From positions 155,802 through 196,849 of the forward strand of contig NZ_JQIU01000007.1 in NCBI RefSeq assembly GCF_002379365.1: 41,048 nt of DNA. The letters run 5' to 3'. This DNA comes from Brachyspira sp. G79. GTDB taxonomy: Bacteria > Spirochaetota > Brachyspiria > Brachyspirales > Brachyspiraceae. This document shows positions 10,114 through 36,270 of this stretch, one piece after another; position 1 is the stretch's first letter, and each line of letters opens with the position of its first letter. A program made the translations under genes and the position numbers. The notes under the pieces are model-generated. The model did not search any database, was not told the DNA's origin, and saw only the letters and a list, made by a program, of their open reading frames with translations.

Positions 10114-10134
10114 CTTCACAAAATATATATTATA

Positions 10135-10324
10135 CTTGTTTCAAAACTAATTTCATTTATGATTGCAAGGACTAGACCTGAGAAATACACAGTTATCCTC
10201 TCTGCCGAAAGACTGCATATTTGATACTAAAATGATAATTTATACAACATATAAAACATTGTTTTTTAAATTTATTAATTAATAAAATTTTATATATAAT
10301 CTTGTCTGGCATTTCTTAAATAAG
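10135..10324 (+). repeat. Dispersed intergenic element, copy A
   Basis: It starts with CTTGTTTCAAAA followed by CTAA (10135-10150) and ends with a degenerate inverted end (about 10301-10324). Inside is a conserved block with GACTGCATATTTG (10210-10222), a segment ending ATATAAAACATT, and ATTTTATATATAATCTTGTC. The same blocks in the same order occur in inverted orientation at 36011-36259, and the right half also at 15060-15185. The middle (about 10160-10210) is less A+T-rich and differs between copies. No coding potential is seen. It fills the gap between the chemoreceptor and the phosphatase. Confidence 0.75.
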
Positions 10325-10355
10325 TCTATTAATTTATAATTTAATAAAAAATTAT

Positions 10356-13224: not shown

Positions 13225-13552
13225 TACTTTTTGACGTACAGCTCTGCTGTTTTTGCCCGAGGTACACTTCGCGAAAAAACAATTGCTATAATTTTATATT
13301 TTAAAGATATGTATTAAATTGTAGGATATGACTTAAATTTAGGCTAAAAATGCAGGCTTTTGCTACTTCGGGCTGTGTCTGCTTCTAACCACACAGGCGT
13401 ACTTCGTATGTGGCACACCTATCTACGGTACGCAGAGCGTGCAGACAGGGTACAAACGAACTTGCTAGCATCATGACTGTGAAGCCCTCAATATTTTAAA
13501 TTTAAAAAATTAATTTTTTGACAAACTATATTTTTTAGGTATATACCTACAT
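13225..13552 (-). repeat. Dispersed intergenic element, copy C, with G+C-rich island
   Basis: A patch much richer in G+C than its surroundings and without an ORF. Its right edge (13479-13525) is an inverted copy of 14957-15005 in copy B: both share TTTGTCAAAAAATTAA, then TTTTTTAAATTT and GGGCTTCAC (read on the minus strand here). It also contains TTCGCGAAGTGTACC (minus strand, near 13261-13275), shared with the island at 31475-31590. Reading rightward out of the element, TTGACA at 13518-13523 is followed after 16 bases by TATATA. The rest of the gap to 13680 shows nothing else. Confidence 0.6.
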
Positions 13553-14935: not shown

Positions 14936-15190
14936 TACATACCTAGACAATTACAATTTGTCAAAAAATTAATTTTTTAAATTTTGATATTTGCAGGGCT
15001 TCACTACCGTACCGCTACCAACTTCTTTTTGACTTAGCAAAGCAAACCTTCGATAAAGCAATCGCTAAAGACTGCATATTTGTGTATTAAAATAACAACT
15101 TACACAATATATAAAACATTATATTTCATAATTTCAAAATTAAATAATTTTAAAGTTAATATTGTCAAGTACTTTTGAAACAAGTATAAT
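14936..15190 (+). repeat. Dispersed intergenic element, copy B, with promoter-like ends
   Basis: The left part (14957-15005) matches copy C in inverse; the right part (about 15067-15184) matches copies A and D: GACTGCATATTTG, ATATAAAACATT, and the end TTTTGAAACAAG. Both ends resemble outward promoters: leftward TTGACA (14959-14964), 17 bases, TATGTA (14936-14941), pointing at the flavoprotein gene; rightward TTGTCA (15162-15167), 17 bases, TATAAT (15185-15190), pointing antisense into the transporter gene. The middle is G+C-richer. No ORF is present. Confidence 0.7.
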
Positions 15191-32609: not shown

Positions 32610-32700
32610 AAATAAATCCGTACATTTTTTATTTAATAAAACACTTATTAAAAATGATTGTAAAAATGATATTTTTAATCTCATTATTTATAAAATAGAT

Positions 32701-32800
32701 TTGTTTTAAAACTTAATTAATAAAAATTATACTATTTTATTTTTTAGTATTTTGTAATTTTATATTTAATCTTGTCAAGTATTTTTGAAACAAGTATAAT
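32701..32800 (+). repeat. Dispersed intergenic element, copy F: short internally deleted form
   Basis: It starts TTGTTTTAAAACTTAATTAA and ends AAGTATTTTTGAAACAAG (to 32794). The order of blocks equals that of copy D read on the minus strand (including TTTTTAGTATTTT), but the G+C-rich core and the GCATATT block are missing. The right end gives a promoter-like pair TTGTCA (32772-32777), 17 bases, TATAAT (32795-32800), facing the secreted-protein gene at 33016. Confidence 0.7.
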
Positions 32801-33700: not shown

Positions 33701-33722
33701 TTAGAAACAACTCTATTACTAT

Positions 33723-35999: not shown

Positions 36000-36010
36000 A
36001 TGATATTAAA

Positions 36011-36259
36011 CTTGTTTCAAAAGTACTTGATAAGATTATATATAAAAATTTAACAATTTATCAATCATAAAAATAATGTTTTACATGTTATATAAATTAT
36101 TATATTAGCATGTAAATATGCAGTATTTTTGCTTCTTTGGGGCACCACCGAGTAGGTGCCTATTCGGCAAAAGAAGTGTGGTCTGGGGCAAAGCCCCAGT
36201 TATAAAAATACTAAAAATCAAAACAGTATAAATATTTCTTAATTTAGTTTTGAAACAAG
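36011..36259 (-). repeat. Dispersed intergenic element, copy D: complete, with perfect inverted ends
   Basis: A 249-bp unit bounded by CTTGTTTCAAAA (36011-36022) and its exact inverse TTTTGAAACAAG (36248-36259). Read on the minus strand it matches copy A block by block. The core holds two strong hairpins: CTTCTTT/AAAGAAG (36132-36138 with 36170-36176), enclosing GGCACC/GGTGCC, and CTGGGGC/GCCCCAG (36183-36199). No ORF and no evident target duplication. Its right end is 11 bases from the deoB stop, so the G+C-rich hairpins may also end deoB transcription. Confidence 0.8.
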
Positions 36260-36270
36260 TCTATTGACAA

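Follow-up and report, generated by a model that had tools for sequence, protein, structure and literature searches.

The element at positions 36008-36262 of the window, the whole 41,048-nucleotide stretch of Brachyspira sp. G79 DNA analysed here, very probably belongs to a family of non-autonomous MITEs of an IS5-family insertion sequence (IS). A sequence-only reading had proposed a non-autonomous, MITE-like element with terminal inverted repeats (TIRs), a proposal now supported by empty sites, target duplications and an IS with the same ends. Copies are shorter than 1 kb, contain no transposase gene and are associated with a 3-bp AWT target-site duplication, traits by which MITEs are recognised.

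Anatomy of the element and its copies

The copy that drew attention, copy D, is a full-length MITE of 255 bp on the plus strand (profile E 5.6e-61). Its 12-bp inverted ends at 36011-36022 and 36248-36259 are perfect, as first read, and the element reaches past them: empty-site comparison and a position-coupling test place the borders at 36008 and 36262, with ends AGACTTGTTTCAAAA. The left end reads AAACTTGTTTCAAAAGTACTTGATAAG and the right end, as reverse complement, AGACTTGTTTCAAAACTA. A 3-bp target duplication, ATT, lies on the left (36005-36007) and right (36263-36265), assigned from the empty site GATATTAGCAATTAC in genome G017 and from the coupling test. Within the plus-strand element, a conserved left block (36020-36130), defined by a consensus of 79 copies and by blast to the chimeric IS relic L321, is followed by a G+C-rich hairpin core (36120-36200) with stems CTTCTTT..AAAGAAG and GGGGCAAAGCCCC, which also occurs in a second repeat family. 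No ORF of at least 80 aa overlaps copy D, in line with the earlier view that it lacks one.

These ends are far more frequent than controls. The 12-mer CTTGTTTCAAAA occurs 74 times in the host's own genome (G000, 3.29 Mb) versus 4 times for its reversed control, the 15-mer AGACTTGTTTCAAAA 35 times (17+18) versus 0 for its control, and a weight matrix of the ends finds 7 matches in the window versus 0.3 in shuffles. Used as a query, copy D finds about 45 distinct places in G000.

The family profile recovered copies D, A, B and C in the window as well as a core-only relative. Copy A (10132-10327, minus strand) is a full-length MITE of 196 bp (E 9e-28) with ATT on each side; it has both ends and, as originally described, the opposite orientation to D, and convergent genes flank both D and A. 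The partial repeats reported at 14936-15190 and 32701-32800 are real. The first, copy B (14936-15187, minus strand), is a chimera, with a left end of the present family on the 15187 side and an end of the second family, TACATACCTAGACAATTACAATTTGTCAA, on the 14936 side. The other, copy C (32697-32797, minus strand), is a complete 101-bp deletion derivative that retains both ends and has AAT on each side, and the element is absent from the corresponding site in G017. A solo degenerate end lies at approximately 33702-33714 on the minus strand (weight matrix score 20.4 at 33720). The core-only relative (13285-13530, plus strand; profile match positions 52-226) lacks the ends of the present family and probably belongs to the second.

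The consensus of 79 oriented copies begins with the left end AGACTTGTTTCAAAACTACTTGACAAGATT, which holds a conserved, putative promoter-like TTGACA box, and continues as a conserved A+T-rich left block to ...ATATGCAGTC; the repeated block GACTGCATATTTG is the reverse complement of this inner edge of the left half. Next come a G+C-rich hairpin core, which varies among copies, and the right end TTTAGTTTTGAAACAAGTCT. TIR starts lie 91-384 bp apart across copies.

The 5-mer flanking the 88 copies with both ends is mostly TAWTA. Its middle base is coupled between left and right (two-by-two counts 37, 7 and 9, 32; Fisher p 6e-9), and coupling is confined to positions 2, 3 and 4 (p 0.001, below 2e-4 and 0.003), with positions 1 and 5 uncoupled. 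With coupling limited to these three central bases, the duplication is the 3-bp AWT within a TAWTA target. The outer flank positions, nearly always A on the left side and T on the opposite side, are uncoupled and therefore belong to the element.

Insertion sites and distribution

A search for empty sites in relatives, by which the sequence-only reading could be checked, found many copies with clean empty sites in related species. The site of copy D is empty in G017 and in B. innocens, and others were found in comparisons among G000, G003, G017, G018 and further genomes. For example, AATAAATAATA-element-TAATAGATAAAAC corresponds to AATAAATAATAGATAAAAC when empty, and GTAGAAAATAATA-element-TAATAGTCAGG to GTAGAAAATAATAGTCAGG. 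At L085:231, empty CATTC becomes CATT-A...T-ATTC when filled, which agrees with a 3-bp duplication. Other clean empty sites match copies in G000 (L008, L175), G017 (L180), G003 (two in L085, L231, L229) and G018 (L113, L103). Some copies (L011 and L111) are common to G000 and G017; because copies are shared between species, the insertions differ in age, many of them being old. Non-orthologous copies, empty sites and inverted ends elsewhere are thus all on record, the reverse of what a set of repeats fixed at orthologous positions would present. Separately, the two copies in L085 (G003:C2, a contig of 25.5 kb) have empty sites in G017 that resemble coding sequence; genes on this small plasmid- or phage-like contig may therefore be disrupted.

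Genus-wide, the end sequence proved common: the 15-mer AGACTTGTTTCAAAA occurs in 21 of 25 Brachyspira genomes and in 0 of 16 from other spirochaete genera, with zero control matches. Among Brachyspira, the number of 15-mer ends per genome ranges from 0 to about 159, with 79+80 in G003, 40+30 in G018 and 15+19 in G017. Within the spirochaete genomes covered, the family occurs in Brachyspira alone. No DNA match to it was found in plasmid and phage collections; IMG/VR gave 46 single 16-mer matches, but no stretch with such a match has another strong end, and all are taken as chance.

In the host genome, 44 of 46 copies with at least one end overlap no predicted gene. The 46 lie between convergent, tandem and divergent genes in 14, 26 and 6 cases, versus 16, 64 and 30 among gaps longer than 150 bp, a bias consistent with insertions into genes and promoters being selected against. 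When contig C7 of G000 is compared with G017, a copy sits precisely at 3 of 20 synteny breakpoints (copy A, G000:C7 34215 and 47649), a coincidence no more than suggestive of element-associated rearrangement. For copy A, this loss of synteny leaves no empty site to be read in G017. A 539-bp end-to-end pair with masked bases inside was also seen at L220/L060 (G000:C8 near 890300-890800).

Probable partner insertion sequence, descent and the hairpin core

A transposase gene with the same ends, the second line of evidence by which the original proposal could be judged, was found in G041 as part of a multicopy IS5-family IS. PF01609 (DDE_Tnp_1) turns up in few Brachyspira genomes (4 of 26), and in its G041 match the transposase C-terminus runs into a right end of the family's type. 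Protein searches located 13 places in G041, most at contig ends, along with decayed relics in G023, G020 and G018; a weak match in G010 (E 6e-4) probably reflects a different transposase. G041 has 29 occurrences of the 14-mer end, again mostly at contig ends, as a collapsed multicopy repeat is expected to look. Most of them are of two kinds: left ends AGACTTGTTTCAAAAGTACTTGACAAATC, after which a coding start follows (LSKCDWFKKTYLFLLEELRKVYKGFNNGRPRKL...), and right ends that carry the C-terminal part of the transposase. A single one of them (L359) is a MITE.

The C-terminal piece from G041 matches the IS5 models NF033581 (E 2.7e-28, profile 145-284) and PF01609 (7e-20). It passes the cut-offs of PF01609 and PF13359, and scores 99 bits against an NF033581 cut-off of 140 bits that applies to the whole protein, the C-terminal half alone being available. 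The left and right ends of the G041 IS lie on separate contigs, the middle ~100 aa are absent from the assembly, and both ends stand together solely in a decayed, whole-length relic of 766 bp (L324, G023). At L348:1597-1745, the open frame at the IS N-terminus begins only with a TTG that follows a stop codon. In three of four relatives the annotated coding length is not a multiple of three, and with the two observations together a programmed frameshift is possible. An IS3-type (rve) transposase has more than 80 matches in G041 as well, and one of them interrupts the IS5-type element in L284.

The G041 IS and the MITE share ends and target context. The MITE consensus left end agrees with it at 26 of the first 27 positions, and in both the stretch CTTGACAA is found at the left end only. 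Unlike the MITE, the IS encodes a DDE transposase, and its interior differs beyond ~27 bp, which makes it a cousin and not the direct parent. In the MITE-rich genomes G000, G003 and G017, neither PF13359 nor the protein itself was found. With no partner transposase found in their own genome, the window copies look stranded, and the MITEs of this species have presumably ceased to move.

A closer link is provided by L321 in G020, whose left 105 bp are 81% identical to the MITE consensus and whose right 115 bp are 87% identical to the G041 IS, with TAATA on each side; the left block of copy D matches its 5' region. Such a structure is what an intermediate of internal deletion should look like; it suggests an origin of the MITE leader in an IS of this family. 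An IS tail fused to an existing MITE by recombination would have the same look, and the direction of descent is one that we infer. Together, the shared ends and this chimeric relic point to movement of the MITEs in trans by the IS transposase. Under such a scheme, the ends AGACTTGTTTCAAAA, together with CTTGACAA at the left end, would be the binding and cleavage sites of the transposase, and the element, either cut out or copied in trans, would insert at 5'-TAWTA-3' with duplication of the central 3 bp (AWT). An IS relative would have lost most of its transposase gene and kept the 5' leader and ends, with the G+C-rich hairpin core then gained or kept, presumably as a passenger.

Other partners were considered and rejected. 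A Tn3-type origin (TIME), prompted by the TAWTA target, is contradicted by the absence of PF01526 in 12 genomes and by a duplication of 3 bp rather than 5. For an IS3/rve transposase, the G000 match has no nearby end, and the few ends near rve matches in G018, G024 and G041 are neighbouring copies, not gene termini. In the DNA stretches analysed, long end-to-end pairs enclosing an ORF contained only host genes between unrelated copies.

A second interspersed family, seen at window positions 14936-14964 and at many places in C7 of G000 and in G017, has ends TATATACYTAAACAAYTATAATTTGTCAA and TTTTTGACAAACTTAAAAATTTTTAGTATATA. The G+C-rich core is common to both families despite their different ends. 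The idea that this core represents an RNA/DNA module with a function, or under selection of its own, which at least two unrelated miniature-element families of Brachyspira captured and spread, is improbable. That the core itself is the mobile unit (REP-like or a hairpin element), with IS5-type ends hitch-hiking, is highly improbable: its presence between the second family's ends and the joining of one end of each family in copy B are what such a unit would leave, but the insertion boundary is the IS5-type end and not the core in every clean empty site, and the 101-bp copy C has both ends without the G+C-rich core. Least probable of all is a conserved structured RNA or regulatory element (e.g. 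a bidirectional terminator) held in place by selection and transposon-like in looks only. Copy D does fold strongly as RNA (z -6.3), 4 of 17 pairs in the core hairpin are compensatory, and the convergent setting of D and A extends to the genome (14 convergent to 6 divergent, versus 16 to 30 for the longer gaps); yet counter-selection against promoter insertion also yields a convergent excess, and Rfam matches in the window are limited to one tRNA. Empty sites with 3-bp duplications, non-orthologous insertions and ends shared with an IS stand against this account. The empty sites and duplications refute it as an explanation of how the element arose, although individual copies may have been co-opted for a function.

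Relation to known elements and significance

Supported by computation in every defining trait that it could address, the Brachyspira elements add a new family to the IS5-type MITEs, which are known from Porphyromonas and Neisseria (PMC4596501). Known examples are BrickBuilt and MITE464/PgRS of Porphyromonas gingivalis and ATR of Neisseria, for which ISNme1 is the proposed parent (PMC4596501). Like the Brachyspira elements, these are short, gene-less and intergenic, with TIRs matching an IS5-family IS and of a related pattern (GAGACCTTTGCAAAA and GAGACTGTTGCA versus AGACTTGTTTCAAAA; PMC4596501). They differ in sequence and host; target duplications of BrickBuilt are irregular, whereas those of the Brachyspira family are a clear 3-bp AWT in TAWTA. 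Internal tandem repeats were not seen in the Brachyspira MITEs, a further point of difference.

Among IS elements, transposases on Acinetobacter, Spiroplasma and Geminocystis plasmids, those of the first two annotated as IS5 family transposases, are 43-51% identical to the G041 C-terminal piece. Their elements come from other phyla and have ends of the kind GACTTCTTGCAAAA, with TTGC for TTTC; the one in Acinetobacter, a more distant relative within the IS5 family, has the end GATCTCTTGCATAAATCA and TAATA on each side. The Correia elements of Neisseria are likewise small TIR elements with promoter-like sequence in their ends, a likeness of style only; their TIRs differ from those of the Brachyspira family.

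The sequence-only reading could point to no named Brachyspira element of this kind, and the papers searched contain no description of one either; going by these, this appears to be the first MITE family for Brachyspira. Its very uneven copy number marks past bursts, and copies, some of which lie at rearrangement breakpoints, could serve as strain-typing markers. With an identifiable parent type and a candidate direct intermediate, the family opens the origin of a bacterial MITE to test.
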